Shown in pieces: positions 3,656 to 53,245 of a stretch of DNA of 64,000 nt. The position numbers were made by a program, and so were the translations under genes. The stretch's first letter is position 1. The number at the start of each line of letters is the position of its first letter. This DNA is from Nakazawaea peltata (Eukaryota; Ascomycota; Pichiomycetes; Alaninales; Pachysolenaceae). Under the pieces are notes generated by a model. That model worked only from the letters and a program-made list of their open reading frames with translations, was not told the DNA's origin and made no database searches. The stretch lies in the NCBI GenBank assembly GCA_001599355.1, contig BCGQ01000007.1, positions 376,620 through 440,619 on the forward strand, read 5' to 3'.

Positions 3656-4621
3656 ATGGCAGACTCATTTGATCAAGACTCCAACTTGGAGCAATTAAGA
3701 GACGTTTTATGTAATAAGAGTGGAGATGTTGCTTTACTGATCCGTTTCCGTGCTTTATTTTTCTTGAAGAGTATTGGATCCGAGTTTGAAAGTAACCTGG
3801 AGAAACTGAATACCCTGATTAAGTACATTGCTGAGTGTTTCCGTGATGACTCTGAGTTATTGAAGCACGAGGTGCTGTATGTTTTGGGTCAAAGTAAGAA
3901 TATGACTGCTCTGCCAGTTCTTAGAGAGGTCCTCAAAGACAACCAACAACAAGTCATGGTTCGTCATGAGCTGCTGGAACTGTTGGGTCTGTTAAACGAT
4001 AAGGATTCTTTGGATTTATTGGTAGATTATTTCAAGAATGATCCGTCTGAAGAGATTAGACAAACTTGTGAGTTGCTGATCGAGCGTATCAAATGGGCTA
4101 ACTCTAACTTATCCAAGGAGGAAATTTTGACCAAGAGTCTTTACGAAAGTATCGACCCAGCTCCTCCTATGGCTGAAGAACAAGAAAATGAAGGTGCCAC
4201 CACTGCTAAGGTTGCTCGTCTCCAACAGATCTTAAACGACCAAGAAAAGCCTTTGTTCGAACGTTACAGACTGATGTTCCGTTTGAGAGATATTGGAACC
4301 GATGAGCTGGCCCTTCTGTTGCTGACTGGTTTCCTGGATAAGAGTGCCCTTTTCAAGCATGAAATTGCTTATGTTTTCGGTCAGTTATGTAACCCTGTCA
4401 CTGTTCCTCTGTTGATTGAGGTCTTGAAGGACACTCGTGAACTGGGTATGGTACGTCACGAGCTGCTGGAGCTGTTGGGATCTATTCTGACCGACGAGGT
4501 CCTTCCGGTTTTGCAAAGCTTCCTTAACGATGAGGAAGATGTCGTCAGAGACTCGGCTATTGTTGCCTTGGACATGTACGAATACGAAAACTCTAATGAG
4601 GTCGAGTATGCTACCGTATAA
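3656..4621 (+). CDS. LIA1: Deoxyhypusine hydroxylase
   Basis: A diiron HEAT-repeat enzyme that hydroxylates deoxyhypusine on eIF5A, the last step of hypusine formation, in the cytosol. All four metal-binding His-Glu pairs are visible at residues 71-72, 104-105, 235-236 and 268-269, in two symmetric HEAT halves separated by an acidic linker (about 165-185). The length of 321 residues is normal. In the standard code the repeats read RHELLELLG; with CTG as alanine they become the family consensus RHEAAEALG. KHEV-CTG-YVLGQ likewise becomes KHEVAYVLGQ, which makes this gene the clearest code marker in the window. It converges on RPA12 with a 106-base gap. Confidence 0.97.
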
Positions 4622-4727
4622 AAAATATAAAAAATAAGTTCATACATTATCTAAATATAAGGTTTTAGTTTCTTTTATAAACTTGTGGGCAGCTGATGTA
4701 GCTACTATATGACACTTTAAGAACTCC

Positions 4728-5102
4728 TCAATTATTCGTTCTATATTTATATTGACACTTTGTACATGTGTAGAATACAGTAGCACCTTCATCAGCACTT
4801 CTTAATTGCAAGGTATGATACGACATTTCTTCGTTACCACATTGAGGACATTTCTCTTTAATTGTAGCACCTTCACCCAAGTCATCCTTTGTGATCTTAG
4901 TCTTGACAACACTTCTATTACTTCTCAATACACTTGGGAACAGATCCTCCGATGTCTGTGTCACCACCTTTAAATCGGTGAACTGTGAGCTTTTGTAGGT
5001 CTTAGAACAAAGTGGACACTCCAAATGTGATACACCCAGAGTCACTGAGGGAAGCAAAGTTCCACATCCCGTGCAAAATATTAACGAACCAGCTACTGAC
5101 AT
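4728..5102 (-). CDS. RPA12: RNA polymerase I subunit A12.2
   Basis: A small nucleolar Pol I subunit needed for RNA cleavage and termination on rDNA. It has two zinc ribbons: N-terminal C10/C13/C29/C32 and C-terminal C85/C88/C113/C116. The second contains the TFIIS-like acidic hairpin LRSADEG (about 100-106), whose Asp-Glu pair reaches the active site. The length of 124 residues matches the family (about 125). The start is supported by the immediate zinc ribbon and by the PAC/RRPE promoter 43-61 bases upstream. Confidence 0.96.
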   Translation of the reverse strand: MSVAGSLIFCTGCGTLLPSVTLGVSHLECPLCSKTYKSSQFTDLKVVTQTSEDLFPSVLRSNRSVVKTKITKDDLGEGATIKEKCPQCGNEEMSYHTLQLRSADEGATVFYTCTKCQYKYRTNN

Positions 5103-5144
5103 ATTTCTCCTTTTGAATGTTCCCGATTATCTCAAATATTCGAT

Positions 5145-5163
5145 CTCATCTTGAAATTTTTTC
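5145..5163 (-). promoter_or_regulatory. RPA12 promoter: adjacent PAC and RRPE elements
   Basis: Read on the minus strand, the block is GAAAAAATTTC followed two bases later by GATGAGATCG, ending 43 bases before the RPA12 ATG. This is the classical RRPE-PAC pair of ribosome-biogenesis promoters (known in Saccharomyces, where Stb3 and Dot6/Tod6 bind them). A second A/T block lies at 5171-5184. Confidence 0.6.
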
Positions 5164-5305
5164 TACTTAAATAAAAAAAATTTTAATTCTCATGCTTGAG
5201 CTAAAAATTAAAGTTTGTCACTACAATGCAGTGACTAGATAAATATGTAAAATTTGTGACACTACGACTACATCTCACTAAATATAAACTTCTATATTCC
5301 TATTC

Positions 5306-6991
5306 CTAATATTCATCCTTACCACTAATGATGACATCATTAATCTTAAGAATCATTCTTGTCAACTGGGTAGCCAACAATAATTGTTGCTTCTTACCAA
5401 TTAATGGATCAATGACAAACAATTCCTTCATGTCATTATTATTATTACCCAAACAATCGACACCAAGCAGAGAATTCTTCTCGAGCAATTGAGACAGCTT
5501 CAAGTTGGTCAAAGTCTCAATAGAGTTAAGACCCGAGTTCTCCAGTAACAGCATAGGTATCACGTCTAACAGCAGCAGGAAACTACGGAACAGGTATTGG
5601 TTAATTCCACGTTGCTTGTCCAGCAGTTCAGCAACGGCAAGAGAACAAGAAATCTCCAGAGCTCCACCTCCGTAAACAACTCTATTGTCCTTGATCAAGT
5701 TTCTGACGACACAAAGAGAATCATGTAACAGTCTAACGGATTCGTCGACAATCATCTTATTAGAACCACGTAAGAACAGAGTGACAGTCTTCAAATTATC
5801 ACAATCTTCAACAACCAACATCTTTTCACGAGTAGTACCAAAAGATAATTCTCTAACTACACCCAGATGACCTAATTTTGACAGGTTCAAATCTTCAAAT
5901 CTTGGAACAATCTTACCGTTAGTCAGAATCAGTAACAATTCCAATTCTGGTCCACCAACCCAACGTACAGCCGGTAATTCGTTAGTCAACAATAAATGGT
6001 TCAGTTCATCATCGAAACCCCATTGACAAATAACCAAATTAGCTCCACTCAGTTTCACCTTGTCGATCATTTCTTTGAATTTATCTTGTTCGTAAGTTTG
6101 AAGTTTCTCAAATTCTTCAACTGTGGAGATATCCAATTTATGCTTTGTCTTTGGTTTTGGAGGTTCAAATGGACAAGTCAATATCAGTAATTTGGCATCT
6201 TCAATTTTCTTTGGCATTTGAGGATGAGAGAAATCTTTATCAATGATGACACCTTTAATCAATTTCGAGTCTTCTAACAGACCACCAACTTTACCTTCGA
6301 TCTTAATCAATTCAAAATCGACATCTTTTCTTTCCAAATCAGCCACAGAAAGAACACTTTCAACTGCCATAGTAGCAAATTTATCATGACATTTACTTAC
6401 AATTTTGGAACCCAATGAAGTTTTCAGCAGCTTGAACAAATTACTAGAAGGATCCAAATTGGCACTCAAATCTTCAAAATTAATCTCAAATTCATCTGCA
6501 ATATTATCCAAATTAGCAACTGCAATTTTACACAGCTCATCAAATCCATTGGCAACCTTAATAGGATGAATTCCCTTTTCGATCAACTCGAACAGTTGAT
6601 CCAACAAGGCACCAGCAAGAACAACAACACCAGTTGTTCCATCTCCAATCTCATCATCTTGACTCTTACTCAATTCAACCAATAATTTGGCAATCTCATT
6701 GGATAATTGCATAGAACCTAAGATAGTAGCTCCATCATTGGTAATACTGATGTCACCATCTTGAGAAATCAAGATCTTATCCAAACCACGAGGACCTAAA
6801 GATGTCTTAAGAATTGTCAGAACTTGTCTCAGCAGTAAAATATGTTGCTTTACCAGCTCGATTCCATGAGATCTTTGCTTCTTTCCTTGATCTTTAACAA
6901 TGATAAAAGGTCTACCCATTTCATCTTGGGCTACGATCAGATTAGACATATCTGGCATTGGCACCATGCCGCCATTTCCTGGATGAGCCAT
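5306..6991 (-). CDS. CCT5: Chaperonin TRiC/CCT subunit epsilon
   Basis: One of eight subunits of the cytosolic ATP-dependent chaperonin that folds actin and tubulin. The group II chaperonin signatures are present: LGPRGLDK (about 65-72), TNDGATIL (84-91), the GDGTT nucleotide/Mg motif (116-120) and VVYGGGALE late in the protein. The start [12 protein letters not shown] is the epsilon-specific N-terminus. The length of 561 residues is normal. Several CTG codons fall at family alanines (residues 46, 53, 54 and 58, giving EAVK and LAARQVA). Upstream is a divergent promoter shared with a small gene at 8008. Confidence 0.96.
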
Positions 6992-13999: not shown

Positions 14000-15751
14000 T
14001 TAGCCCCTCTGATAAATCAAAAGGTAAGGTGTCTTGGAATCATCCTCATCCTGATCACAAACATTCTTTTTAGAAATACCCTCAATGTTACCGTCATCAA
14101 TACGTAACCATTCTCCACCGTGTGACACAACATCAGCCGTATAGTGACCCCCCTCAGCTGATATTCCGTGATGGTACACTACCCCGCTCAAATTATATTG
14201 GACATTGAGCACATCTTGAGAATGGAATTTTCGCGATTCGGGAGAAATCGACTCTGCAGGAATCTGTAACAAATCCGGGCATTTGATTTGTTTCCTGATT
14301 TTATTGATTTCAAAGACGTAGTCATTCGAATCCCCTCCCATTGTAAACGCAAATCTCTTTAAATGAACAATTAAAACGTTAGGGAGCCTGTCAATGAATG
14401 TTTGTTTCTTCAGTTTTACTTCATTCCCGTTATCTGATTTATATGGGATTAACTCTACGACACTGAATAATCTGAACAGATCTTCAAGTGTTGATACATC
14501 TGGAGAAGATATATCAAGTTGGACATGTTGGAAGGGATCCAAAGTGATAGATTTCTTAGGTTGACGAGGAATATCTAATACGGATCTGAATTGTCCTCCA
14601 AATAACATTGTAATTGGGGAAGGTTTTACTTCCACAGTACGTTTCAGAGCGATTCTGTTACGTTTTTTACCAGTTGCACCAACCTCTTGCCATCCATCAC
14701 CATCCAGAGCATTACCTGATCCGTTTCCATTCCCATATCCATAGCCAAAACCGTAGCCATAGCCATACTCATCTATAATATCATCTTCTTCGACGCTCCC
14801 GTTACCAGAAGAACTCAACCCCAACATATCCACGGCAGCCTTCAACATTCCAACCTTGTCTGCGTCAACTTTATCACAACACAGCTCCACCTCAAGCCTA
14901 TCCATCTTCAGAATAGCAGCGACAAACTCCTCATGCAACAGGTCCAACAAATAACCCAAAAACTCTTCCAGATCCTCCTGTTGTCCCCATTTCAAATGAG
15001 CAAATTTCAGATTACGTTGGATAGAACGGTAGAATTCATCAGGAGTGAAGGGATGCTTGGTGTTAGTTGAAAATGAAATCATGAATAGAAGTACCAGGTC
15101 TAATACAGGACTTTCTGAAGGGGCACCGGATAAATTCAGCACCGTTCTTTGTTGTATAGTTTTCAACAAGCCGTAAAAGCCAGGACAATGCATTAATATC
15201 TGTAACACAGAGTTCATGTAACAAATATTACCGGTGTTGATCAAACCTCTGGTATATGGAGGTGATAATGCGAACATATTCTTCTGTAAGTTGGAGGAGA
15301 ACATGATTTGAAGGGAAATGGATCCAAGAGAATCGTAGGATGGCAGTGGGGCCATAATAGGAGGCATGGATGGGACACTAGGTGGTGGAGAAACAGACTC
15401 AGTATTTGGTTGAGTAGATCCCTCCGACTCGTCAAAGGTGTCCGAGTTCGAGTCTGAGTCTGAGTCGGATTCTGAGTCTGACTCAAAATCAGGTACTTTC
15501 CGAGCCATAGCACTCCATGTCATCGACTTTTGTTGTGGTGTCTCCACAGCATATTTCTTTCCTTTATCTGCTACCTTATGTTCCTCGCCTTCATGTGAAT
15601 AACCCAACAGATACAGCACTTGACGATGCTGGTCGAAACCTATGCCATCTAAATTGTTAAATAATAATCCCTCAGATCGTGAGTCCAAATATTCGTTATA
15701 CAGATCGATTCGCAGCACATCATGCGAGTCTAATATGAGCCTATCTGGCAT
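14000..15751 (-). CDS. UBP3: Ubiquitin-specific protease Ubp3 (USP10 family)
   Basis: A cysteine deubiquitinase that acts with Bre5 on COPII/COPI proteins, ribophagy substrates and Pol II. Catalytic elements are present: the Cys box GLINTGNICYMNS with Cys177, the QQED-x-EEF box (about 258-264, CTG at 261 giving the usual Ala), and the His box GGHYTADV with His536 followed by RIDDGN. The N-terminus is a Ser/Asp/Glu-rich disordered segment (about 88-115) and a Pro-rich stretch. An insertion with a Gly/Tyr repeat (about 325-350) lies between the boxes. At 583 residues it is shorter than S. cerevisiae Ubp3 because the N-terminal region is reduced. Confidence 0.9.
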   Translation of the reverse strand: MPDRLILDSHDVLRIDLYNEYLDSRSEGLLFNNLDGIGFDQHRQVLYLLGYSHEGEEHKVADKGKKYAVETPQQKSMTWSAMARKVPDFESDSESDSDSDSNSDTFDESEGSTQPNTESVSPPPSVPSMPPIMAPLPSYDSLGSISLQIMFSSNLQKNMFALSPPYTRGLINTGNICYMNSVLQILMHCPGFYGLLKTIQQRTVLNLSGAPSESPVLDLVLLFMISFSTNTKHPFTPDEFYRSIQRNLKFAHLKWGQQEDLEEFLGYLLDLLHEEFVAAILKMDRLEVELCCDKVDADKVGMLKAAVDMLGLSSSGNGSVEEDDIIDEYGYGYGFGYGYGNGNGSGNALDGDGWQEVGATGKKRNRIALKRTVEVKPSPITMLFGGQFRSVLDIPRQPKKSITLDPFQHVQLDISSPDVSTLEDLFRLFSVVELIPYKSDNGNEVKLKKQTFIDRLPNVLIVHLKRFAFTMGGDSNDYVFEINKIRKQIKCPDLLQIPAESISPESRKFHSQDVLNVQYNLSGVVYHHGISAEGGHYTADVVSHGGEWLRIDDGNIEGISKKNVCDQDEDDSKTPYLLIYQRG

Positions 15752-16672: not shown

Positions 16673-16674
16673 TT

Positions 16675-17985
16675 CTATTTAGTCATCTCTTCACAAACAG
16701 ATGCCCAGATTTCCAAACCTTGCTTGATTTTGTCTTGAGTTAAGCTGGAAATCGATAATCTGACACTAGAAGAGCCCCAAGATCTCAGGTCTCCGCTCAC
16801 CTCAAACTCATCTCCACTAGCCAAGATGACACCCTTCTCAGCACACTTTGAACACATTTGATGAGCATCGAATCCCAGTGGTAAAGTCACCCAGAGGAAA
16901 TAACCACCATCACCACCACATACAGAAGTTCCTGATGGCAATTTCTCGGCAATCAATTTCTTTATCAATTGAGCTCTAGCTGAATACTCATCATTGAAAT
17001 CCTTGATGATCTTATCGATCAGTCCAGTCTTGAGAATGTCCTCAACAATGGAGATATTCAATTGAGAAGGAGTACCTCCACTCTTGTTAGCACCTCCTTG
17101 ACTCAATTGGAACAGCAACTTCTCATTTACGGATTCTTGCCATCCAGTTCTAAGTCCTGGGCAAATCAATTTCGAGAAGGTACCATTAGAAACAGTGTTT
17201 CCATATTCAGTAGTACCTGGCAACAGTCTGTCGATCAGGGTCAATCTAGGAACAGGAACTTCATTCCCTGTATAATCCAATAAGTCGTACACATCATCAG
17301 AGAGAATCAACATATCGTACTTACGAGCGATTTTGACCAATCTCACACGACTTTCATAGTTAAGTAATCCACCTTTAGGATTACTGAAAGTTGGGATCAA
17401 GTAAATCACATATTTGTATACTTTCTTCTGAACTCTCAGAGGATCTGAGATATGCTCAATAGTCTGTGGTTCGGCACCATATTTAGCCTCAGATTCCTCC
17501 AATTGTCTCTCCAATTCATCAAGGTCAATTTGTCCATCGTCTTTCTCCAAGATACCAGCCAACTTACCTTCTCCACCAAACCCGGCATCGATGAAAGCAC
17601 CATTGATCAAGTAATAAGTCGGAGTGACAATGAACAGTTTACGAGTATAATTGTTATGAGGAGATGAGCACTGCAGTAAACAGTTCATGATACCATAACT
17701 AGCACCACCAGTAAGATTCAAATGATCTGGCTCAGTTTGCATAGCTTTCTTTTCAGGGTCAGAATCAAGATGGAATGTCCTGTTGATCCAAGCCAGAATC
17801 TCTTTCCTGGTGTCCAAGTTTCCTGGATCAGTTCCATATTGCATTGGAGATCTGTTATCAGGATCTCCCTCATACTTATCTGGGTTCAGATGGATCTCTG
17901 TTAAGACATTCTTTGACAGCTCGAGAATAGCCTGAGTTGGGATCAAACTGTTAGTTGGATGTCCTCTGAAGAAATTTATAGCCAT
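16675..17985 (-). CDS. PLP-dependent class I aminotransferase, YER152C-like
   Basis: A fold-type I aminotransferase resembling S. cerevisiae YER152C (annotated as a 2-aminoadipate transaminase; substrate not established here). Visible features: LTGGASYGIMN (PLP phosphate binding, about 91-101), PTYYLIN, PTFSNPKG (substrate and ring contacts around N202), SDDVYD (229-234, the Asp to the PLP nitrogen), the Schiff-base lysine in GTFSKLICPGLRTGW (K272), and a C-terminal arginine in SVRLSISS. The length of 436 residues is normal. It probably acts in the cytosol, as no targeting sequence is seen. Confidence 0.85.
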   Translation of the reverse strand: MAINFFRGHPTNSLIPTQAILELSKNVLTEIHLNPDKYEGDPDNRSPMQYGTDPGNLDTRKEILAWINRTFHLDSDPEKKAMQTEPDHLNLTGGASYGIMNCLLQCSSPHNNYTRKLFIVTPTYYLINGAFIDAGFGGEGKLAGILEKDDGQIDLDELERQLEESEAKYGAEPQTIEHISDPLRVQKKVYKYVIYLIPTFSNPKGGLLNYESRVRLVKIARKYDMLILSDDVYDLLDYTGNEVPVPRLTLIDRLLPGTTEYGNTVSNGTFSKLICPGLRTGWQESVNEKLLFQLSQGGANKSGGTPSQLNISIVEDILKTGLIDKIIKDFNDEYSARAQLIKKLIAEKLPSGTSVCGGDGGYFLWVTLPLGFDAHQMCSKCAEKGVILASGDEFEVSGDLRSWGSSSVRLSISSLTQDKIKQGLEIWASVCEEMTK

Positions 17986-18185: not shown

Positions 18186-19685
18186 CTAGATGATAATTCT
18201 AACAGGAGGGGGGCTAGAATTTGAGGTAGGTGAGAGGGTGGGAGAGCCTGCAGCGGTGGTGGCAGCGGTGGAGGTGATAGCATTGTCATCGGACACTTCT
18301 GCTAACAGACGAATAACTGGCTCGAAAACAAGTTTGTCGGCATCTCCCAGCCATAATGTATCCATATGTTCGTAATCTTCAACTCTTATAACCTCTACAG
18401 GACAAGACAAATTTGCTAATGTCCTGTCAATGTCAATAAGTGAGTCTTGAGTTCCATATACAAGTAACATCGGTGTAGATATTGTTTGAGTAGGGAACGG
18501 CAGTACTCTATGCAGTTTATGTTGCTGCAGAGATAATATAAATTTACTTCCTCCGTTACCCCCTTCATCGTACATTTGAAAACGTTTGGATTTGATGATT
18601 TGAAGCCAATGAACTACAGACTTCACACTTGAAGGAGAAAACATATGCAGATATCCAATCTTTTTCTGCAGATCTGATATTTTAGCTGAGCTCCATCCAA
18701 ATAAAAGCACCAACGATTTATCAACTACCATTTTATAATAATTGTCTCCCATCAACTGCTGCCAAAACACTACACTTGGCAATATTGCCCGTTTTCCAAA
18801 TAATCTAAATAAAAATGACTGCAGAGAATTCACAAAGAAGCTCAGAACTGGATGGTTAAGTCCTCTAGGAATCATCAGTGGTGATAACCCGACAAACAAA
18901 TTGATCTTATCATTGAGTTTTGGTGAAAGAGACAACAGCAGTAAACATTGCAGAGATCCTTGACTAAATCCAATGTAAGAAATACTCTTCTGTGAAGTCA
19001 GTTCTAATATATAGTCTATGGTATTAGGTATATCGTACATCAGATACTCATCAAGAGAGTAATTCCAAAACTCCTCACTGCTAGCGCTTAACTCTACATG
19101 TTTCCTGGAATATTTGTTTCCTCGATTGTTTCCCAACCAAACATCATACCCATTATCTACTAAAATGAATGGTAAACATTTGTTTGCCAGCTGTCCGAGG
19201 ACAAAGAGCTCACTGTTAGTCAAGAGTCCATGGTGGAAATATACACATGGTTTGTGAAGGGATTTCAAATGTTGGGAATAGCTACGGTTCTTTTTACTAG
19301 TGGAATTTCCAGGACTTAATAATCCAGGAGAAATAGAGGATGATTCCAGCTCATCTTCGTTAGTTTCTATACCTAAATTCTTGGGAATAATACGATGAAT
19401 AGTTAAAAGGTACCCATCAGCAGTTTGTACGACATGTTCATGGACTTTATATCCAAATGCATGACAAATATCGACGATATCGATCAGTTTGATAATACGG
19501 GACAGGAATTCATCATCGGTTGGGGTCGTTTTCACCGGCTTCTTCTTAGTTCCCTTGTCTTCCGCCTCATCAGCATGGAAAGCCACCATCTGTTCTGATA
19601 TAGTGGAGTATAAAACACTTAATACCCGGAATACTGTGGATATAAGTAACAGCACTGTTTCTAAAAATAGTCTAGTGAACGGCAT
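18186..19685 (-). CDS. TGL1: Steryl ester hydrolase Tgl1
   Basis: A lipid-droplet alpha/beta hydrolase that releases sterols and fatty acids from steryl esters. It has an N-terminal membrane hairpin (about 5-27), the lipase N-terminal segment ending HEHVVQTADGYLLTIHRI, the oxyanion HHG (151-153), the nucleophile elbow GFSQGS (Ser241), and a late YEHMDTLW carrying the catalytic His. SSVKSVVHWLQI and KRFQMYDEG are close to S. cerevisiae Tgl1. CTG at 245, 249 and 250 gives GSAQCLAAL, as in the family. The length of 499 residues is slightly shorter than Tgl1, which has a longer disordered tail. Confidence 0.92.
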   Translation of the reverse strand: MPFTRLFLETVLLLISTVFRVLSVLYSTISEQMVAFHADEAEDKGTKKKPVKTTPTDDEFLSRIIKLIDIVDICHAFGYKVHEHVVQTADGYLLTIHRIIPKNLGIETNEDELESSSISPGLLSPGNSTSKKNRSYSQHLKSLHKPCVYFHHGLLTNSELFVLGQLANKCLPFILVDNGYDVWLGNNRGNKYSRKHVELSASSEEFWNYSLDEYLMYDIPNTIDYILELTSQKSISYIGFSQGSLQCLLLLSLSPKLNDKINLFVGLSPLMIPRGLNHPVLSFFVNSLQSFLFRLFGKRAILPSVVFWQQLMGDNYYKMVVDKSLVLLFGWSSAKISDLQKKIGYLHMFSPSSVKSVVHWLQIIKSKRFQMYDEGGNGGSKFILSLQQHKLHRVLPFPTQTISTPMLLVYGTQDSLIDIDRTLANLSCPVEVIRVEDYEHMDTLWLGDADKLVFEPVIRLLAEVSDDNAITSTAATTAAGSPTLSPTSNSSPPPVRIII

Positions 19686-22129: not shown

Positions 22130-23917
22130 ATGAATATCGTAAAGGGATTCGGCTATTTTTTCAGTCTTGAGCTGTTGGATTCGAGATTGGTTCCTGCTCC
22201 CGGATCTCTGCAGCTGCGGCTGGCTATGAAAAGGGCGGGGGAATCACGCTGGAAGACTCGTGAATTCCTGATCTACCTGGTGGTATTTCTGATATGTATC
22301 CCATTAATGTTCAGGGCTGCCATGACTCTGTCCAACGAGACTAGTCCTAACTATTGGATTTACCAGAAGATCTTGAGTCAAGGTTGGATTTTCGGTCGTA
22401 AAGTTGATAACTCCGATCTGCAATATCGTTTCTTCCGTAACAACTTCCCATTGTTGGTCTTGTTGTTGGTACTGCACGTTGCCTTGAAGAAAGGTGTCAT
22501 GAAGTACCAGAGGAACGCTCATGGTGCCAAACTGAAACTGTCAATTGACGCAGCATTGAACTTTGATTTCATCTTCGGGTTGATATTTTTATTTGCAATT
22601 CACGGTTTCAACAGTATTAGAATCGCCATGCACGTTACAATTAACTACTTGGTAGGTAAATATGTACCGAACCGTAAACTGAAACAGTTAGTGACGTGGT
22701 TTTATGCTATTTCGACCTTGTTCTTCAATGATCGTTACCGTTTAGTCAAGTTTGGATCTATTGTTCCATTTTTGTCATTTTTGGATGGGTTCAAGGGAAT
22801 AGTCGAGAGATGGGATGTCTTTTATAATTTCACTGTCTTACGTATGATTAGTTTTAATGTTGATTATGTTAAACAAATGGATGCTCTCGATGCCAAGGCT
22901 TCTTCAAAGGATGTCGGGATTGAAGATGTTGGTGGAGACAGTGGGTCGGAACAACATAATAAAATTGAGAAAATGGACATTGCAGCACCTGCTACTCCAA
23001 AATACCCAGCTGAAAGGGAACGTTTGGATCTGGTATTGCCCCTCTCAGATTACAATGTTCAGAATTACATTGCATACTTGACTTATGCTCCTCTTTTCAT
23101 TGCAGGTCCTATCATCACCTTCAATGATTATATTTATCAGAGCCGTCACACTTCTCCAGTATTGACTCGTAAATTCGTAGGTGTTTATTTACTGCGTTTC
23201 ATCGTGGATATTATGAGTATGGAGCTCATTCTCCATTATATATATGTAGTAGCCGTATCTAAACTGAAGCTGTGGCACAACGACACTCCATTCCAAATCT
23301 CAATGATTGGATTATTCAACCTTAATATCATTTATATGAAATTATTGATACCTTGGAGATTTTTCCGTCTTTGGGCATTGCTCGATGATATCGATCCACC
23401 TGAAAATATGCTCCGTTGTGTCAATAACAATAACTCTCTGTTAAGTTTCTGGCGTGCTTGGCATCGCTCCTTCAGTCGTTGGTCAATCAGATATCTTTAC
23501 GTCCCTCTTGGTGGAGCAAATAATCGGGTGCTCACTTCTTTATGTGTATTTTCATTTGTAGCCATCTGGCATGATATCCAATTGAAATTATTATTATGGG
23601 GTTGGCTTATTGTGCTTTTCTTGCTCCCAGAGATCTTATTATCGTCTTATTTCAGAAAGAATTACCTGGATAAATGGTGGTATCGCCATGTTTGTTGTCT
23701 TGGAGGTGTAGTAAACATTTGGATGATGATGATTCTGAACTTATTTGGATTCTGTCTTGGTCTGGATGGTACTAAAGACTTCCTCAACAAATTACTTATG
23801 TCTTTTGAAGGATTTAAATTCTTTATCATCAGTTCTCTGTGTCTCTTTGTTGGGGTTCAAGTTCAAAATGAGTTACGTGAACATGAAAAGCGTAAAGGAA
23901 TTGATGTCAGATGCTAA
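22130..23917 (+). CDS. GUP1: MBOAT O-acyltransferase Gup1
   Basis: A multipass ER enzyme that remodels GPI-anchor lipids by adding a very-long-chain fatty acid; it affects wall, rafts and glycerol phenotypes. The N-terminus has LELLDSRLVP and KRAGESRWKTREF, the Gup1-type start. About ten hydrophobic helices follow. MBOAT signatures are FWRAWHRSF (His445) with IRYLYVPLGG, and the second conserved His in AIWHDI (His481). A hydrophilic loop at about 245-300 is variable. The length of 595 residues is normal for the family. Confidence 0.95.
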   Translation: MNIVKGFGYFFSLELLDSRLVPAPGSLQLRLAMKRAGESRWKTREFLIYLVVFLICIPLMFRAAMTLSNETSPNYWIYQKILSQGWIFGRKVDNSDLQYRFFRNNFPLLVLLLVLHVALKKGVMKYQRNAHGAKLKLSIDAALNFDFIFGLIFLFAIHGFNSIRIAMHVTINYLVGKYVPNRKLKQLVTWFYAISTLFFNDRYRLVKFGSIVPFLSFLDGFKGIVERWDVFYNFTVLRMISFNVDYVKQMDALDAKASSKDVGIEDVGGDSGSEQHNKIEKMDIAAPATPKYPAERERLDLVLPLSDYNVQNYIAYLTYAPLFIAGPIITFNDYIYQSRHTSPVLTRKFVGVYLLRFIVDIMSMELILHYIYVVAVSKLKLWHNDTPFQISMIGLFNLNIIYMKLLIPWRFFRLWALLDDIDPPENMLRCVNNNNSLLSFWRAWHRSFSRWSIRYLYVPLGGANNRVLTSLCVFSFVAIWHDIQLKLLLWGWLIVLFLLPEILLSSYFRKNYLDKWWYRHVCCLGGVVNIWMMMILNLFGFCLGLDGTKDFLNKLLMSFEGFKFFIISSLCLFVGVQVQNELREHEKRKGIDVRC

Positions 23918-41900: not shown

Positions 41901-43602
41901 TGTCATACAAGGAGTATTTAATAATGATCAACCATTAAATACAGGACCTACTTCTTCTCCGGATAGTCATATTCCACCTGGAATTTTGAAGGCTTTGAAT
42001 ATGAGTATATCACTTAACCATAAAGTTTGGATTTGGGCTGATCGGAACTCAAAAATCTCTCTTAGTAATGAGCAGGAAAGATCTCAATCGTTAACTCACA
42101 TCGCAACTAAACTCAAATACAGAACTAAGAAGTTCATCGAATTATTATATTCATTAGAACCGTTAAAGGTCATTGAAAGGTTAGTCGTGTATTATTTTGA
42201 AGATAAAAACGATCTGATCTTCAAACTTATGGACATTTTAGACGGAGCTCGTCCAGAATTGACTTTACCTCATTTATTAAGTTGTATTAAGTACACTTGC
42301 CGGGAGCTCTCAGCAGCAGAGAAGAAGACTCAAGAGTTGACCAACTCTCAACTGTGTGATTTCTTATTTGATTATCTGAAGAGGTTGGACAAAATTTTGT
42401 ATGAAGATTTGTATTCAAGTTTCAATTCCTTCTTGAAGTCCGTATTGACTACTCCGGATTACAAACCTGTGTACTCGAAGGTGTTGAAATTGACGAGTCT
42501 TTTCGTGGTCAATTTGGACTCGAGAAAATCGAAGAAAGAATTAAATGAGTCTTTTGTCAAATTGTTCTCAATCCATTGTAAAGATCCAGATATTGGATTT
42601 GCAGATGCTTTAGTATTCATAGTTCCCTCTCTTAAGAATATGTCAATTGAAGTTGATAAGTTAGGGTTGATTAATAATATGATTCTTAACTATATTCAAC
42701 CACAAATGCTGAAGAGTGATGATACTTTGACCCGGATTGAGCCGTGTGTGTTCCTGGTGAACGAAGACATCAATACCAAACAATGGAAACAGATCGTAAA
42801 TGATGTGACTTTGAATAATGCCGGGTTCTTCGACAAGAAATGCAAGAATTTGGTCTTGTTCAACCATTTGATTCAGAAGAATCTCGATGGAGACTATGAT
42901 AAATTGAACGAATTACTTGTGAAGATGACGGTCAATAGCTCTAATTTCTTGAACTGGAATGATTACAATGAGATTTTGAATGGAAAGAAATTGAATATGA
43001 AAAGGTTGACCTACTTGATCTTGTGTTGTCCTCAGAATAGCTTTATCAATGTAGCTGACGATATCATCGTCAAGATCAAGGAGATTTTAGGAGAGAAGGA
43101 TTTGAAACTGCAAATTTATACGTTGATCCGGTGCTTGATCTTGAAATTCGACCATCTTTACATCTCAAATCTTTGGGTCTTGATTTACAATGAGCTCTAC
43201 AAATTGTTCAATAACGTAGTTGAGGATTTGACTAAGGTGAATTTAGAGACTGTATTCAGTGGATGCAAATTACTTGACGTTTTGGTGTATATGAAATCGG
43301 AGGAGTTCCTCTTGAGTGAATGGTTATTCCTTGGTACAGATGATAGTATGTTTGGATTGGTCGACCAGATAGGTGCTCTTCAATTGAGTAATGATACCAC
43401 AGAGTCAAATGACCAACCAACAGAGCAAGGCCCATTGTTATTGGACATCAAATCAGTAGAATCGTTACAACAATTACAACACAAATTCTTCAAGAAATTA
43501 TCAGCTTCAAATTACAACCATATCTTGAACTTGGGTGGTCATAACCAAACTTTGAACCTGGACATATTGAAACAAGACATCTTCAATGACTTGTTCCCTT
43601 AG
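38977..43602 (+). CDS. DOP1: Dopey protein Dop1
   Basis: A large peripheral protein that works with Neo1 and Mon2 in endosome-to-Golgi membrane traffic. The N-terminal Dopey domain is clear: YISGVEKLIATFDSAI, WADYISFLSRLLK, then LPSGVHKKTLEVYDYIF and GIWLPGLLPLM. The rest is HEAT-like helical sequence with few motifs, as in the family. The long open frame runs back to 38722 without an ATG, and the first 85 codons are low-complexity, so the first ATG at 38977 is chosen (1541 residues, close to S. cerevisiae at 1698). Its last 20 bases overlap the 3' end of MTQ2 on the other strand. Confidence 0.93.
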   Translation: MSSPPKGIFRAMSPSFLSPSSKDALSSKEKRYISGVEKLIATFDSAIVEWADYISFLSRLLKLLEANPSTEFSAHYIPCDLDISKCLSICLSKNLPSGVHKKTLEVYDYIFGVLGPKNLGSHIGIWLPGLLPLMSYASMTVKPQLIELFSKHILSLETSNLQLILKPLLLSLLPSIDDETSDTFQECMQLIDDVKSRAHNDAQFWNYIFLIILTSEDKRLGAMIWCQRRLPVLQDEWNSIFGETSKCDLFVNSILKALVDPNILIQRGFFDILISQLPLNSSLLVKSRTSEANVVNLMMSASSCVLRRDMSLNRRLWNWLLGPDETKTSEYFSQYGFELLSKGLLGLIESTTSSALSRHDSYRVSLLIMDKWEIGQLIIPKILIPLLSITKRSESEELLKLASNFFDNVDCFNIWSNYLKLVIDKDFDLCLYILNNFNVAEDEMVKGHLPLILLALLCIQVDVEERTNWISLVTQIEQLIPSESLELKEESIDREGILNHIKEYYFEEGKIELVLHSARFLLLERISDLILSWTNEITQKTHTPPILPLFNIYASLLSKGTSKYQNQLLINTVFSLKNCTSVELVFGVGKIFNHVIESTTDLPIKLSFLNEYLNQLWSILSSPLTALKFQMELVQLILTLEQTLPAHYTESYLIKLFKDDRSPDKIFKFTTIWSHYGYHKETSLFLCKGVELIMDDLDNYRIRPYIRDFISSLISNGQITKFFDILYLKPSQSVTDYLTIAYNMNNINELIKLDDRIISCLDLKYSVSDDTSYKQSIIEYCFSILELEDVELDCFVACSKLVKLLLGEEEHEYALRGLTLVMRMREETFKVHLLELTIDLLKHCPKFSGHELIFQIFNENILSFQSCMMVSPLFDLLIASLGILENQIVDMIPTITTNVIEKITSLYEKLTAELETDLQSVESLDLDHCVVLLISGLEELLVKTYYILMKTPVDLSSIPTSIGASNSDGSGFFGSVIQGVFNNDQPLNTGPTSSPDSHIPPGILKALNMSISLNHKVWIWADRNSKISLSNEQERSQSLTHIATKLKYRTKKFIELLYSLEPLKVIERLVVYYFEDKNDLIFKLMDILDGARPELTLPHLLSCIKYTCRELSAAEKKTQELTNSQLCDFLFDYLKRLDKILYEDLYSSFNSFLKSVLTTPDYKPVYSKVLKLTSLFVVNLDSRKSKKELNESFVKLFSIHCKDPDIGFADALVFIVPSLKNMSIEVDKLGLINNMILNYIQPQMLKSDDTLTRIEPCVFLVNEDINTKQWKQIVNDVTLNNAGFFDKKCKNLVLFNHLIQKNLDGDYDKLNELLVKMTVNSSNFLNWNDYNEILNGKKLNMKRLTYLILCCPQNSFINVADDIIVKIKEILGEKDLKLQIYTLIRCLILKFDHLYISNLWVLIYNELYKLFNNVVEDLTKVNLETVFSGCKLLDVLVYMKSEEFLLSEWLFLGTDDSMFGLVDQIGALQLSNDTTESNDQPTEQGPLLLDIKSVESLQQLQHKFFKKLSASNYNHILNLGGHNQTLNLDILKQDIFNDLFP

Positions 43603-45210: not shown

Positions 45211-47679
45211 ATGTTCGAATTCAAATTATTGGCAGAACAGATTGGTGATCCAGGCACTGGTACCGGCTCCGGCCCACGCTCCGGATCCCCCTGTCGTCTG
45301 TCCTTGTTACGATTCGAATCCGAATTATCAAGTCAAAAAATCACCATCTTAGCTGACCCTGGTTGGGATGGAGTTAGTGATATTTCATACTTGGATCAAG
45401 TCATAGAAGAAGTGGATTTGATCCTCATTAGTCATCCGACCGTGGAATACGTGGGCGCTATCCCATTGATCTTCAGAAAATGGCCCCAGTTCCTTAAAGG
45501 TAAGAAGAAGATCCCGGTCTATACAACGTTACCCATCTCTCAATTGGGGAAGAGTTCCATCATCGAATTGTACAGACTGTACGGGTTGATTGGTCCATAC
45601 GAGACCAACATGTTCGACCTCAAAGATATCGACGAATACTTGAACGAATTCCAGCTTTTGAAACATGGTCAATCCATCACTTTGGCCAAGTTGGATAACT
45701 TGAAGATTTACTGTTACAATGCTGGACATTCTTTAGGAGGATCTTTCTGGTCGATTGTATACAATTCGAACGAGAAGATCGTGTATGCGCCAACTTGGAA
45801 TCACTCTAAGGACTCTTTCTTGAATAGTGGTGCTATGTTGGAGTATGGATCCAATCCGTTACCTCAGTTACTTCGTCCTACTACGATTATCACGTCGTCA
45901 GATTTGGGTTCTACAATGTCATACAAACAAAGAGTACAGAATTTCTATCAATTGATAGATAACACCATTCTGAGAGGTGGAACTGTGGTGTTACCTACTA
46001 GTATGGGAGGGAGATTGTTGGAGTTAGTTCATTTAGTAGATGATCATATCCAACATCGTCCTATTCCTGTGATTTTGATGTCTTATTCAGGTACTAAACT
46101 GTTAAGTCTTGCGGGAAATATGTTGGAATGGATGTCACCTCAGGTTATTAAAGATTGGGAATTCAAGAATCAGATCCCCTTCGATCTGTCTCTGGTTGAA
46201 TATGTCGATAATATGAATGAGATCTTAGAGAGAAGTGGTCTGAAAGTCATTTTGGTCTCTGACGATAGTTGTACTGGTGGGTCAATGGCTAACCAAGTGA
46301 TATCCAAGTTGGGTAATGATGATAAGACGACTATTATTCTTACTGAGAAGCCAAGTATTGGCTCCTTAGCCGACCAATTGTATCAGCATTGGGAACTGTT
46401 ATGTTATCAAGGTAATAATAAAGTGCTGGATGGGATACCAGTGGGATTACAAGAGAATTTGGATTTTGTATCAACTAGAGAAATGATGATGAATCTTGAA
46501 GAACTGGAGATATTCAAGCAGCAGGTGGAACTGAGAAGACTGCTGAAAGCCAAATATGAGGAGGAAGAGTCTGCAGCTGCCGCTGCGGCAGCAGCTGAAG
46601 CTTTAGGAAATGTAGACGATGAGGATGAAAGTGATGTTGAAAGTGTTGTCAGTGATGCTGAAATGGAGAAAGTGGAAGATGAACAGCAACTGACTGAAGA
46701 ACAACAACAGCAACAACAGAAAACCGAGGAATTGATCAAGATGGACTATGATTTAAAGAACGCTACAAGGAACAAACATAAAGTCTTCCCATTTGTTGCA
46801 CATGCCAAACCGAAGATCGACGACTACGGAGAGATCATCAACCCTAAGGATTTCGTCAAAGTAGAGGAAACTAAATTCAAGAGAAGAACTGGAGCTGATG
46901 AAGATGAGGACGATGATATGAATGGTGAATGGGGTAGAAGAAAAGGTAAGAAACTTTTGAGAAAGAAGACTAAACAAGAAGAACAAGAAGAGCAAATCAC
47001 CGAGCAATTGAACCCATTGAATAACCCACGTAAACTTAGTCAAGTCCGGTTCCAACTTTCGACGAGATGTGCCTTGTCGTTTATAGATTTGAGTGGTACT
47101 GTAGATTTACGTTCATATTTGATGATTTTGAACCTGTTGAAACCCAAGAAAACCATCGTTTACAACTCGTTCAAGTCATCTTCCAAAATCCATAACATTG
47201 ATTTGATCAAGAACAAGTTGCATAGTGAAGATTTGTTGATCCTGGCCCCAAATCAAGAGATCCATATCGACAATGTGGTCACTAATGTTGATATCAAGTT
47301 GGACGAGGTATTGGAGTCTCAATTGAGATGGCAGAAGGTTAGTGATGGGTACACTTTGGCACATGTTATTGGAGAGTTACAGAAGACTGCTGGTGACCAA
47401 TTTGTATTGAAACCATTGGTGTCAACTACCAATATCACCACTACTAATACTGTGAATGAGATCAACATTGGAGACTTGAAGCTTTCTGACTTGAGATTGA
47501 AATTGAAGGCCATGAATTATGATGCAGTTTTCAAGGGAGAAGGTATTTTGAGTGTCAATAATGATGTTTGTCTTATTAGGAAGCTGAATGATGATGGAGA
47601 TTTGGTGATTGATGGGTGTCCTAATGAGGAGTTTTACATTATTAGAGATATGGTGAATAGTATGTTAGCGCATGTTTGA
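45211..47679 (+). CDS. CFT2: Cleavage and polyadenylation factor subunit Cft2 (CPSF100)
   Basis: A catalytically inactive metallo-beta-lactamase/beta-CASP partner of Ysh1 in pre-mRNA 3'-end cleavage. The fold begins MFEFKLLAEQIG and LADPGWDG, and the metal-binding HxHxDH of active paralogues is replaced by SHPTVEYVGAIP, as in other Cft2 proteins. YNAGHSLGGSFW and IVYAPTWNHSKD mark the rest of the lactamase domain; the beta-CASP half has TSSDLGS. A hydrophilic insertion at about 445-600 has an Ala run, acidic stretches and a Gln run. The length of 822 residues is normal. Confidence 0.93.
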   Translation: MFEFKLLAEQIGDPGTGTGSGPRSGSPCRLSLLRFESELSSQKITILADPGWDGVSDISYLDQVIEEVDLILISHPTVEYVGAIPLIFRKWPQFLKGKKKIPVYTTLPISQLGKSSIIELYRLYGLIGPYETNMFDLKDIDEYLNEFQLLKHGQSITLAKLDNLKIYCYNAGHSLGGSFWSIVYNSNEKIVYAPTWNHSKDSFLNSGAMLEYGSNPLPQLLRPTTIITSSDLGSTMSYKQRVQNFYQLIDNTILRGGTVVLPTSMGGRLLELVHLVDDHIQHRPIPVILMSYSGTKLLSLAGNMLEWMSPQVIKDWEFKNQIPFDLSLVEYVDNMNEILERSGLKVILVSDDSCTGGSMANQVISKLGNDDKTTIILTEKPSIGSLADQLYQHWELLCYQGNNKVLDGIPVGLQENLDFVSTREMMMNLEELEIFKQQVELRRLLKAKYEEEESAAAAAAAAEALGNVDDEDESDVESVVSDAEMEKVEDEQQLTEEQQQQQQKTEELIKMDYDLKNATRNKHKVFPFVAHAKPKIDDYGEIINPKDFVKVEETKFKRRTGADEDEDDDMNGEWGRRKGKKLLRKKTKQEEQEEQITEQLNPLNNPRKLSQVRFQLSTRCALSFIDLSGTVDLRSYLMILNLLKPKKTIVYNSFKSSSKIHNIDLIKNKLHSEDLLILAPNQEIHIDNVVTNVDIKLDEVLESQLRWQKVSDGYTLAHVIGELQKTAGDQFVLKPLVSTTNITTTNTVNEINIGDLKLSDLRLKLKAMNYDAVFKGEGILSVNNDVCLIRKLNDDGDLVIDGCPNEEFYIIRDMVNSMLAHV

Positions 47680-47730
47680 GCATACGTAAGAGGGCTAGTG
47701 AGGAAAGCAATGTCTACATATCTGATCTGT

Positions 47731-47945: not shown

Positions 47946-47951
47946 GGTATC

Positions 47952-49204: not shown

Positions 49205-49419
49205 TGGTGCACATCATCACCTACTGATAAGATTGCAGGGGCGCTACACCTCCTTAAATACTGACACGCTAATTCGTAAATTGCTACCCTTTCTCCGTAT
49301 ATTTTCCCTCTGGGGGAATCTTCCCAAATAGGAAATAATCACCAAATTGAAAAATTTCAGTCTCTCTCGGTCTCCCATATTAAATGGATCGAATCTGAGA
49401 CAGATTGGGAGGTAGTCAA

Positions 49420-51474
49420 ATGAGCAATATGACGGATTATGAGGATTCCCCCAACGAGGGCGATCAAACACAGACGCTGGATACAACTCCAGGTCCAGAT
49501 GTTGATCATATGACTAAGTTAGAGCCTACCGCCAAGCTGAAGCCAACCGCGGTTCCGCGTAAAAAAAGAACCGCCCTTGATCTGTTACTTGCAGATCATG
49601 ATTGGTACGTTACGATGGGGTCTTCTTCAAGTGGGACTTCTAGATCTGTTAGCATAAGACCGGAGGTCGAGCCTGTGGTTGTGAAACCGGAACTTACCGA
49701 GGAAGAGAAACTGGCCAAACTGCTGAAAATGGCTCTGATCCGCGAGAAACTGAACCAAACCAAGCTTCGAAATCTGGAATTGAAGCTGAAACAACGTGAA
49801 GAACGTAGAGCTAAAGCTGCTCTTCAAGGACCTAAGAAGAAGGTGGTACTGTCTAAGCCTTCTAAGGTGTTAGCTCAGGTCATGGAGGGACTGCTGTGGT
49901 TCACTAGAGATGCTCAAATAGATACTTATACTAGGAAGGTGAAGCCCAAGACCGAGCGTTTCATTATTGAGGTTCCGGAGGTCAAGGTGAAGGTGAAACT
50001 GAGAAAACAGGACAAGGTCAAGGCTGAAAATGAGGATTCTGTGTTGACTTCTAGAGGTAAAGCACTGAGAGTTATAGGAGTAAAGAAAGTGAAACCAACA
50101 GCTAAGAAAGTTAAAGAGAAGAAGAAGGTGAAGACAGACAAAGAGGGGCTTCCAAAAGAAGTTAAGCAAGTAATAGAGACAGAAGTCAAAGAAGAGTCGG
50201 TAGAACCTGAAATTTTCAACTGGTTCTTAGATGTAGACCCGTCTGATAATGACTCCAATATAACAATAACCTCCGATAGACGTTTATTCATTGATGAAGT
50301 TTACGAACACAAATTGATAGACCAAGATTTCACCGAGAACGAGCTTGTCACTGCTCTGCAATTGATCACACACTTCGAAAAGAACTATTACAATACTCCA
50401 GAGATGCCTTACAAAGAGGTACAAATTGAGACACTTTTCTCGAATTATAAAGAGGATTATATTTTGAGTTTACCTAAAGACCATGGATTGAGTCCATTCT
50501 TCGAGATAGGTACATTGATGGAGTTGACGCTGGTGATGTGTTTGCCGCCAAAATACCTGATCCAGATCCGTGACGATGACCATCCAGAGAACAGTATTGT
50601 TGGTAGGTACATTCAACTGCTTTATGACAATAATTCAGAGTTACTTGTAGAGGAGATTGATAAGTATAACCAGTTGATTGCCGATATCAGAGTTAACCAT
50701 TATAATGAGCTTTGTGATTATTTAGCTGCCCGCTCTTCTATTAGTTTACCTCGTTGTCTGTTCCATGAAGTTTTAAACCAGTGTTATTCCAGAACAGTCT
50801 CACCAAATGTTAGATCTCTTCGGTCATATAAACTGTTTTCCAACGAAGTGTACGGAGAATTGTTACCTTCGTTCCTTTCTCGTGTTTATGAGCAAACAGG
50901 ACTTGACCATACCAAGAATTTCATCGATCTTGGATCAGGTGTAGGCAATTGTGTTTTACAGCTGCTGTTAGAGTACGGTTGTAAGAGTTCTGGGTGTGAA
51001 ATTATGGAAAATGCTTCTAAATTGGCACTGCTTCAAACTGAAGAGTTTAATAAGAGATGTAGAGTACTTGGATTGAGGTCTGGAGCTGTCACAAACTTCT
51101 TACAACAGAGTTTTGTCAATAATGAAGGAGTAAAAGAGCTGGTGAATAATGCCCAAGTAATTCTTTGTAATAATTATTTATTTGATGCCGATTTGAATGC
51201 CAAATGTGTGGAATTATTTAGACACCTCCAAACAGGCACGAAAATCATCACATTGAAACCTTTGGTTCCACTTGGTTACAGCTTCAATCTGAACGATGTC
51301 GAGTCGATTTTGAATAGAATTAAGGTTGAAAAATTCTCGTATGGCAATAATAGCGTCTCATGGACTAATAATGGAGGAACGTATTACATCAATCATGTCC
51401 AACAAGACATTGTGAGCGAATATTTTGTCGAGAGAGCCAAGGGACGAACTTCTAGAACCAAAATGTACTATTAA
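49420..51474 (+). CDS. DOT1: Histone H3 Lys79 methyltransferase Dot1
   Basis: A nuclear AdoMet-dependent methyltransferase that methylates H3K79 and acts in silencing and the DNA-damage checkpoint. The N-terminal about 270 residues are Lys/Glu-rich and basic, which in yeast supports nucleosome binding. The catalytic core is C-terminal: YGELLPSFLSRVYEQTGL, the AdoMet motif DLGSGVGNC (from residue 503), GCEIM (acidic residue of motif II) and the active-site CNNYLFD. The two CTG codons at 515-516 give CVLQAALE, as in the family. The first ATG is at 49420 (684 residues). It shares a divergent promoter of about 215 bases with VPS37. Confidence 0.94.
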   Translation: MSNMTDYEDSPNEGDQTQTLDTTPGPDVDHMTKLEPTAKLKPTAVPRKKRTALDLLLADHDWYVTMGSSSSGTSRSVSIRPEVEPVVVKPELTEEEKLAKLLKMALIREKLNQTKLRNLELKLKQREERRAKAALQGPKKKVVLSKPSKVLAQVMEGLLWFTRDAQIDTYTRKVKPKTERFIIEVPEVKVKVKLRKQDKVKAENEDSVLTSRGKALRVIGVKKVKPTAKKVKEKKKVKTDKEGLPKEVKQVIETEVKEESVEPEIFNWFLDVDPSDNDSNITITSDRRLFIDEVYEHKLIDQDFTENELVTALQLITHFEKNYYNTPEMPYKEVQIETLFSNYKEDYILSLPKDHGLSPFFEIGTLMELTLVMCLPPKYLIQIRDDDHPENSIVGRYIQLLYDNNSELLVEEIDKYNQLIADIRVNHYNELCDYLAARSSISLPRCLFHEVLNQCYSRTVSPNVRSLRSYKLFSNEVYGELLPSFLSRVYEQTGLDHTKNFIDLGSGVGNCVLQLLLEYGCKSSGCEIMENASKLALLQTEEFNKRCRVLGLRSGAVTNFLQQSFVNNEGVKELVNNAQVILCNNYLFDADLNAKCVELFRHLQTGTKIITLKPLVPLGYSFNLNDVESILNRIKVEKFSYGNNSVSWTNNGGTYYINHVQQDIVSEYFVERAKGRTSRTKMYY

Positions 51475-52213
51475 ATAAACAATTCTTCCGGATCTTGTTC
51501 CTGTTCCTGTTCCTGTTCTGGTGAAATTTTTTTTTTGCTTTGCGTGGTGAAACGAATGACCTGACAGACCCGGGGATTTTTTGGAATTTCCTAATTGGGA
51601 TCCGAGTGGTTAGTAATATTAAGAAATGATATTTAGTAATGGATTTGTAGAGGCATTAGTAAGGAGATGGGGCGGTGTGGAAGATTGGGGGAGGGGATGG
51701 ACGACAGGTGTACTCATCAAGGATGAGCTACCTGATAACATATCACTTCCCTTTATTCTTACTGTCGTCCGTAGCTTCGTCCCCTGCACCCACTATTAAT
51801 GTTCCCACCCGAAGTACAATAGTTCCGGGAAGGCTCGATTTATTTTTCTGGGGTATACTAAGAGTTTAGGTGGGGCGGACTGTACCGAAATCTCACCAGA
51901 GTAAAAGGTCATCTGACCTCTGTCACTTATTACTAACATTGAGTAACCTATTTACTAATGCCAACTGATGATTCTGGATCATCTTCGATCTCTGCCTCGT
52001 TACTAATGTCATAACTTAAAATTGCTTCGGGCTGCGATACCCCTCGGAATATTATCCCCCCTCCTCCCCCCTGTACACCGCGCGTTCTGAAAGTAGGGCT
52101 CGGAGAAATTTCGTACATTTTGGCGACCCCCCAAACCCCCAGAAGATATAAAAGGCGGTGGAACCCATCTTCATTTGAGTTTATAACTTGTCATAGTCAT
52201 AAATATATTCATC
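51475..52213. other. FBP1 upstream region with C-runs and a TGTTCC microsatellite
   Basis: About 740 bases. After the DOT1 stop there is a TGTTCC repeat of nearly four units (51496-51519). Near FBP1, C6 runs at 52056-52061 and 52066-52071 and TATAAAAG at 52147-52154 (60 bases before the ATG) form the promoter. C-rich blocks are candidate sites for Mig1-type or other carbon-source regulators, since FBP1 is glucose-repressed in yeasts, but no perfect site is seen. Confidence 0.5.
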
Positions 52214-53245
52214 ATGTCTGTTTCTTTGGAATCCGGATCCGACGGAAAGCTCAAAACCGATATCATCACCTTAACAAGATTTATCTTGCATGAACAAAAA
52301 AGAGTTGCTACTAATGCTACTGGAGAATTGACTTTATTGTTGAACTCTTTACAATTTGCTTTCAAGTTCATTGCCCATACTATTAGAAGAGCCGAATTGG
52401 TCAACTTGATCGGTTTGGCCGGTGTACAAAATGCTACTGGTGATGACCAAAAAAAATTGGATGTCATTGGTGATGAGATCTTCATTAATGCCATGAAGAG
52501 CTCCGGTAACGTCAAGATGGTTGTTAGTGAAGAGCAAGAAGATTTGATTGTTTTCGATACTCCAAACGGGAACTATGCCGTATGCTGTGATCCAATTGAT
52601 GGTTCCAGTAACATTGATGCCGGTGTCTCTGTGGGAACCATTTTTGGTATCTACAAATTATTACCTAACAGTCAAGGTAACATCAAGGACGTTTTACGTT
52701 CTGGTACCGAGATGGTTGCCGCTGGTTATACTATGTATGGTCTGTCTGCTCATTTGATGCTTACTACTGGTCATGGTGTCAATGGGTTCACTTTGGATAC
52801 CTCATTGGGTGAATTCATCTTGACCCACCCAGACTTGAAAATCCCTCCAAGTAGATCCATCTACTCCATTAACGAAGGTAACTCTTACTACTGGAGTGCC
52901 AAGCTGAGTCAATTTATCGACTCTTTGAAGCAACCTCAACCAGAGACCGGAAAGCCTTATTCTCTGCGTTACATTGGTTCCATGGTTGCCGATGTGCATA
53001 GAACTTTGTTGTACGGTGGGTTGTTCTCTTACCCAAGTGACTCCAAGTCCAAGACCGGTAAATTACGTATTTTGTATGAATGTTTCCCTATGCTGATGCT
53101 TCTCGAACAAGCTGGTGGTTTGGCTGTTAATGACAAGGGTGAACGTATCTTGGAGTTGACTCCAAAGAAGATCCATGATAGAAGTGGTATTTGGTTAGGA
53201 AGTAAGGATGAGATTCAAAAGTACATCGACTTTGAACCAAAATGA
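52214..53245 (+). CDS. FBP1: Fructose-1,6-bisphosphatase
   Basis: The committed gluconeogenic enzyme in the cytosol. The metal and active-site motifs are present: SEEQED (Glu pair), DPIDGSSNID (126-135) with its catalytic Asp-Asp, VGTIFGIY, and GSMVADVHRTL for substrate binding. The length of 343 residues is normal. CTG at residues 177, 251 and 294 gives MYGASAH, SARYIGSM and PMAMLLEQA, the family residues. The N-terminal region has the AMP-site-like ELTLLLNSLQF segment. High use of GGT/GCT/TTG suggests strong expression on non-sugar carbon. Confidence 0.97.
   Translation: MSVSLESGSDGKLKTDIITLTRFILHEQKRVATNATGELTLLLNSLQFAFKFIAHTIRRAELVNLIGLAGVQNATGDDQKKLDVIGDEIFINAMKSSGNVKMVVSEEQEDLIVFDTPNGNYAVCCDPIDGSSNIDAGVSVGTIFGIYKLLPNSQGNIKDVLRSGTEMVAAGYTMYGLSAHLMLTTGHGVNGFTLDTSLGEFILTHPDLKIPPSRSIYSINEGNSYYWSAKLSQFIDSLKQPQPETGKPYSLRYIGSMVADVHRTLLYGGLFSYPSDSKSKTGKLRILYECFPMLMLLEQAGGLAVNDKGERILELTPKKIHDRSGIWLGSKDEIQKYIDFEPK

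Follow-up and report, generated by a model that had tools for sequence, protein, structure and literature searches.

In the DNA analysed here, the codon CTG appears to be translated as alanine. This 64-kb window (the whole stretch that was analysed, positions 376,620 to 440,619 of contig BCGQ01000007.1, forward strand) is, at a probability of roughly 97%, nuclear DNA of a CUG-Ala budding yeast of the order Alaninales, translated with CUG as alanine (NCBI table 26). The placement of CTG codons noted earlier is confirmed in this window, its interpretation as a CUG-Ala code is supported, and the phenomenon itself is already known. Judged from the sequence, CTG acts like any other alanine codon, a reading supported by a tally of homologue residues at CTG columns, by masked-codon inference, by a gene-stratified comparison with codons of known meaning, and by Pfam domain scores. 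The gene set consisted of 36 open reading frames (ORFs) treated as genes, with 14,992 codons in all, of which 363 were CTG (24.2 per 1000). Gene names were mostly assigned from Pfam, structure matches or recall.

Residues at CTG columns and domain scores

The column tally was carried out on nine of the 36 ORFs: LIA1, CCT5, a UBP-type ubiquitin protease (UBP), a pyridoxal phosphate (PLP) aminotransferase, TGL1, PCM1, CFT2, DOT1 and FBP1. CTG codons were translated as X, the proteins were used to search solved structures, and they were then realigned with a neutral score for X. For the headline tally each gene contributed a single homologue, which in the case of UBP came in two segments, and MMS2 was examined separately, outside the tally. 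Fifteen target segments were taken from the alignments, with near-duplicates and some others omitted, and the columns were not chosen by site. The nine genes contain 168 CTG codons, and 123 of these aligned to a homologue column. At those columns the homologue had alanine 53 times, serine 15 times, cysteine, threonine and isoleucine 6 times each, glutamate and aspartate 5 times each, and asparagine and leucine 4 times each, with all other residues found at most 3 times each. For comparison, GCN codons had alanine at 58 of 125 columns. An earlier note, made from the sequence alone, had read CUG as alanine across positions 3656 to 53245 and had proposed a tabulation of the family residue at CTG positions; alanine was indeed the commonest residue in these nine genes, and the reading extends to positions 55076 to 63933. 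The same note placed TTG, TTA and CTT at conserved leucines, which agrees with the leucine found at 98 of 160, 56 of 97 and 30 of 61 of their columns, respectively. At the 71 CTG sites covered by two homologues, the two agreed at 34 (25 alanine, 2 serine, 1 leucine and 6 others); agreement on alanine was found at 36 of 84 GCN sites, and a depletion of CTG at conserved alanine columns is not clear from these figures.

A residue call based on BLOSUM scores gave 176 half-bits to alanine, 80 to serine and -148 to leucine for CTG, with alanine ahead of the next residue by 96 half-bits. As a control, each of the 61 sense codons was masked in turn, and the standard residue was returned for 56 of them. 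The five codons missed were TGC (6 columns), CTA (1), CGC (2), CGG (2) and CTG (123, called alanine), CTG being the only codon with more than 6 columns to depart from its standard meaning. Some of the correct calls had thin margins, namely TCG and ATA (by 1) and GCG and AGG (by 3).

When CTG was compared with other codons in a gene-stratified analysis, its odds ratios relative to GCN codons were 0.92 for alanine (z -0.28), 1.38 for serine (z 0.76) and 1.27 for leucine (z 0.34). Relative to the other leucine codons, the odds ratio for leucine was 0.03 (z -10.7), and relative to serine codons the odds ratio for alanine was 6.7 (z 6.7).

Proteins from 20 of the 36 ORFs were scanned against Pfam under NCBI tables 26 (alanine), 1 (leucine) and 12 (serine). 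Scores were summed over 32 domain models, after 15 overlapping or weaker models had been dropped (HEAT_PBS, HEAT, HEAT_EZ, HEAT_GCN1_C, FSH1, Hydrolase_4, adh_short, HHH_5, MFS_4, four of the five models in UTP6, as well as KR and UCH_1, both of which passed with serine only). The totals were 4830.5 bits with alanine, 4713.1 with serine and 4617.4 with leucine, which puts alanine ahead of leucine by 213 bits and of serine by 117 bits. Alanine scored above leucine in 29 of the 32 domains and above serine in 24, with one tie, and it was the best of the three readings in 23; it also scored above leucine in 12 of the 15 dropped models. Large gains over leucine were seen for CCT5 and for the HEAT_2 domain of LIA1 (scores given below), for the SNase domain of LCL3 (85.7 versus 69.0 bits) and for OPT (574.4 versus 558.2 bits). 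A standard-code translation puts leucine in place of alanine at about 2.4% of the residues in the 36 ORFs (363 of 14,992). Since the standard code misplaces leucine and lowers the homology scores of those 29 domains, annotation needs table 26.

Alternative readings of CUG

Several observations weigh against alanine. Serine outscored it in 7 of the 32 Pfam domains and leucine in 3, the dropped Suf model of UTP6 scored best with leucine (30.8 versus 29.8 with alanine), and the leucine found at 4 of the 123 CTG columns compares with 3 of 125 for GCN codons. Two genes, singled out as outliers after the fact, also stand on this side: UBP (14000-15751, reverse strand, 16 CTG codons) and CFT2, or CPSF100 (45211-47679, forward strand, 17 CTG codons). 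In the alignment of UBP with its distant homologue USP8, the 7 CTG columns held serine 3 times and neither alanine nor leucine, and the 12 CTG columns of CFT2 aligned to solved CFT2 held 4 serines and 3 threonines, again with no alanine or leucine. GCN columns of the same genes had alanine at 4 of 10 in CFT2 and 2 of 7 in UBP, while their CTG columns had none. The alignments of CFT2 and UBP are weak, leucine being kept at only 16 of 44 and 14 of 29 leucine-codon columns, respectively, versus 45 of 62 in CCT5. Other genes lean in the opposite direction, with alanine at 13 of 19 CTG columns versus 6 of 12 GCN columns in LIA1 and at 5 of 10 versus 2 of 9 in DOT1, and the UCH domain of UBP scored 160.8 bits with alanine, 159.9 with serine and 153.1 with leucine. 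The serine and threonine lean of CFT2 and UBP is probably the product of divergence and small numbers.

If CUG were an ordinary leucine codon, alanine at the columns named in the earlier note would be a coincidence; the four leucine columns and the three domains that score higher with leucine speak for this reading. Leucine was present, however, at 192 of 338 columns for TTA, TTG, CTT, CTC and CTA taken together, and the likelihood favoured alanine over leucine by 276 bits. The tally was made without site selection, and the masked-codon controls make alignment error very unlikely. Leucine can be regarded, on these comparisons, as excluded as the main reading of CUG, and the chance that the codon is ordinary leucine is vanishingly small.

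A serine reading, as in the CUG-Ser1 or CUG-Ser2 clades, would ascribe the alanine columns to easy exchange between serine and alanine. It draws on serine being the second residue at CTG columns, on the lean of CFT2 and UBP, and on the seven domains that prefer it. True serine codons behaved differently, however, with serine at 77 and alanine at 20 of 232 columns, as opposed to 15 and 53 of the 123 CTG columns, and alanine was favoured over serine by 79 bits in the likelihood as well as by the 117 bits of the Pfam sum. Serine as the main reading thus appears strongly disfavoured, and we consider it extremely improbable.

Ambiguous decoding, mainly as alanine but with a real serine share supplied by a mischarged or second tRNA(CAG), was considered in a three-way mixture fit. 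This gave CTG shares of 0.80 for alanine, 0.19 for serine (bootstrap 0.05-0.34) and 0.01 for leucine, and same-size samples of CTG gave a serine share of 0.225 (0.02-0.37); the two outlying genes point the same way. The serine share suspected from the fit was dropped when held-out true alanine codons, treated identically, gave an overlapping value of 0.11 (0-0.34), and the gene-stratified excess of serine over GCN codons reached only z 0.76. The fitted share is within the noise of the method, and a small real share may be compatible with the data; ambiguity of this kind is very unlikely. Slightly broader, and improbable as well, is the case of a lineage outside the three CUG-Ala genera, or of a CUG read mostly as alanine with a real serine share in some genes such as the serine-leaning CFT2 and UBP, that is, of a second or unfinished change of CUG to alanine.

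Genes and named sites

All 17 sites that the earlier note named in LIA1, CCT5, UBP, TGL1, DOT1 and FBP1 are CTG codons, as is residue 122 of MMS2, given the joining of its upstream exon. The note held that every one of these becomes the usual residue when read as alanine. In the best solved homologue, alanine was found at 13 of the 18 (LIA1 74, 106 and 109; CCT5 46, 53, 54 and 58; TGL1 250; MMS2 122; DOT1 515 and 516; FBP1 251 and 294) and leucine at none, but the remaining five were glycine (LIA1 107), serine (UBP 261 and FBP1 177), threonine (TGL1 245) and isoleucine (TGL1 249), so that the claim is overstated when judged against solved homologues. A second homologue of each gene had methionine at MMS2 122 and serine at FBP1 294.

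LIA1, a deoxyhypusine hydroxylase (DOHH), is located at 3656-4621 on the forward strand and contains 22 CTG codons. CTG falls inside both of its RHExxExLG motifs (3971-3982 and 4463-4474), at x positions, and solved DOHH has RHEAGEALG and RHECAEALG at these two places. Alanine was found at 13 of its 19 CTG columns aligned to solved DOHH and leucine at none, and its HEAT_2 domain scored 107.0 bits with alanine, 85.4 with serine and 81.2 with leucine. CCT5 (TRiC epsilon; 5306-6991, reverse strand) has 30 CTG codons, and its best homologue had alanine at 19 of the 30 columns and leucine at none; both homologues had alanine at 15 of the sites. The Cpn60_TCP1 domain of CCT5 scored 520.6 bits with alanine, 497.4 with serine and 479.4 with leucine. 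In PCM1/AGM1 phosphoacetylglucosamine mutase (26380-28017, forward strand, 21 CTG codons), the CTG at 26569-26571 adjoins the SHNPP motif, and the best homologue had 10 alanines, 2 serines and 2 leucines at 20 CTG columns. The H3K79 methyltransferase DOT1 (49420-51474, forward strand) has 26 CTG codons, those of residues 515-516 lying at 50962-50967; its best homologue had alanine at 5 and leucine at 1 of 10 aligned CTG columns. The four CTG codons of the fructose-bisphosphatase FBP1 (52214-53245, forward strand), at residues 177, 231, 251 and 294, aligned to serine, isoleucine, alanine and alanine in its best homologue. The top solved homologues of CCT5, DOT1, PCM1, CFT2 and FBP1 are proteins that we take to be from budding yeasts.

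TGL1, an acid-lipase-like lipase (18186-19685, reverse strand, 20 CTG codons), had 3 alanines, 2 serines and 1 leucine at 15 CTG columns aligned to gastric lipase. The PLP aminotransferase (16675-17985, reverse strand, 12 CTG codons) was weak, with alanine at 1 and leucine at 0 of 6 aligned CTG columns, and its Aminotran_1_2 domain scored 73.5 bits with alanine, 64.8 with serine and 67.8 with leucine. The MBOAT domain of a GUP1-like MBOAT protein (22130-23917, forward strand, 22 CTG codons) scored 199.0, 195.3 and 192.4 bits with alanine, serine and leucine, respectively.

MMS2 (25131-25699, forward strand) consists of two exons, 25131-25141 and 25291-25699, and has CTG at residues 23 and 122. 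Residue 122 is alanine in Mms2 and methionine in E2 variant 1, and residue 23 aligns to proline and aspartate in two homologues. The intron, near the start of the gene (25142-25290, 149 bases), has a GTAAGT donor and a TACTAAC branch site at 25274, and a simple ORF list gives only a truncated MMS2 of 102 amino acids.

Beyond the interval of the earlier note, the SDR, DAL5-like, POL4, FCY2 and UTP6 genes (55076-63933) were included in the Pfam scan. Alanine scored above leucine in 7 of the 8 domains compared in these five genes, the exception being DNA_pol_lambd_f, where leucine was ahead by 0.2 bits. Two pairs of convergent ORFs in the window overlap at their 3' ends: DOP1 and a methyltransferase-like ORF labelled MTQ2, by 20 bases (43583-43602), and the DAL5-like transporter and POL4, by 4 bases (58079-58082).

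Codon usage and comparison with known codes

In the 36 ORFs, CTG is the commonest alanine codon, with 363 of 1038 (35%), followed by GCT (347), GCC (190), GCA (110) and GCG (28). No GCN codon can be reached from CTG by fewer than two nucleotide changes; the nearest, the rare GCG, is two changes away through GTG (valine) or CCG (proline). The CTG share of alanine codons ranged from 0.08 to 0.60 across the 32 genes with at least 10 alanine codons and was heterogeneous among them (chi-square 87, 31 degrees of freedom, p 3e-7), and in these genes its correlation with a home-made proxy for codon bias was not significant (rho -0.29, p 0.10). Discussion of CTG as the dominant alanine codon was not found in the literature, in a search that covered few subscription papers and is weak evidence of absence. 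How CTG came to occupy conserved alanine columns could be tested by comparing related genomes. CTA occurs 39 times, and its share of CTT, CTC and CTA was 0.088, versus 0.17-0.50 in the six other codon boxes compared; CGN, outside that comparison, gave 0.124. Such scarcity would agree with the avoidance of a tRNA-Leu(UAG) that could read CUG by wobble. It was not counted as support for the reassignment because CTA is, in general, not a preferred codon in the subphylum (PMC11540330).

ARAGORN, run with the bacterial code and so liable to miss an intron-bearing tRNA, detected no tRNA gene in the window, and no Rfam family reached its gathering score there. Alanyl-tRNA synthetase (AlaRS) recognises the G3:U70 acceptor pair of its tRNA. 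Following published work on the clade (PMC5951914), the ancestral tRNA-Leu(CAG) would have been lost and CUG would be read by a tRNA-Ala with its anticodon mutated to CAG, which AlaRS may still charge because specific anticodon bases are not required. The same study reports that the tRNA(CAG) of the clade derives from a tRNA-Ala gene in which the anticodon mutated, and it bases the CUG-Ala clade on tRNA genes, on compared sequences and on mass spectrometry that covered key positions in 18 yeasts (PMC5951914). As the earlier note recognised, the code is not new: it was reported in 2016 for Pachysolen and later extended to Nakazawaea and Peterozyma (PMC5951914). In an earlier survey, CUG in Pachysolen was absent from highly conserved (at least 90%) leucine or serine positions (PMC4986446), in keeping with the pattern in the window. 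For 453 of the 462 yeast species to which Codetta was applied, the meaning of CUG that it inferred matched the known clades (PMC8629427).

These three genera make up the family Pachysolenaceae of the order Alaninales, whose phylogenetic place is beside the Pichiaceae. CUG-Ala is known from this one small group of budding yeasts, which makes the order the most likely source of the window; the view of the earlier note that the code fixes the clade is a reasonable deduction from the code. The 39.9% GC of the window is near the 42.3% given for Nakazawaea ambrosiae (PMC10106607). Pachysolen has a lower GC content, to which the window is less close, and this comparison is a hint only. With the Alaninales code (table 26) the window shares CUG at alanine columns and unchanged meanings of the other leucine codons, and no difference in code between the two was found. 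The CUG-Ser1 code of Candida and its relatives (Serinales, table 12) reassigns the same codon in budding yeasts, and CTA is rare in those yeasts (PMC6701816), as it is here; in contrast to that code, the CTG columns of the window are alanine-like and not serine-like. The CUG-Ser2 or Ser-Leu code of Ascoidea and Saccharomycopsis likewise reassigns CUG in budding yeasts, whereas in the window CTG is abundant and alanine-like.

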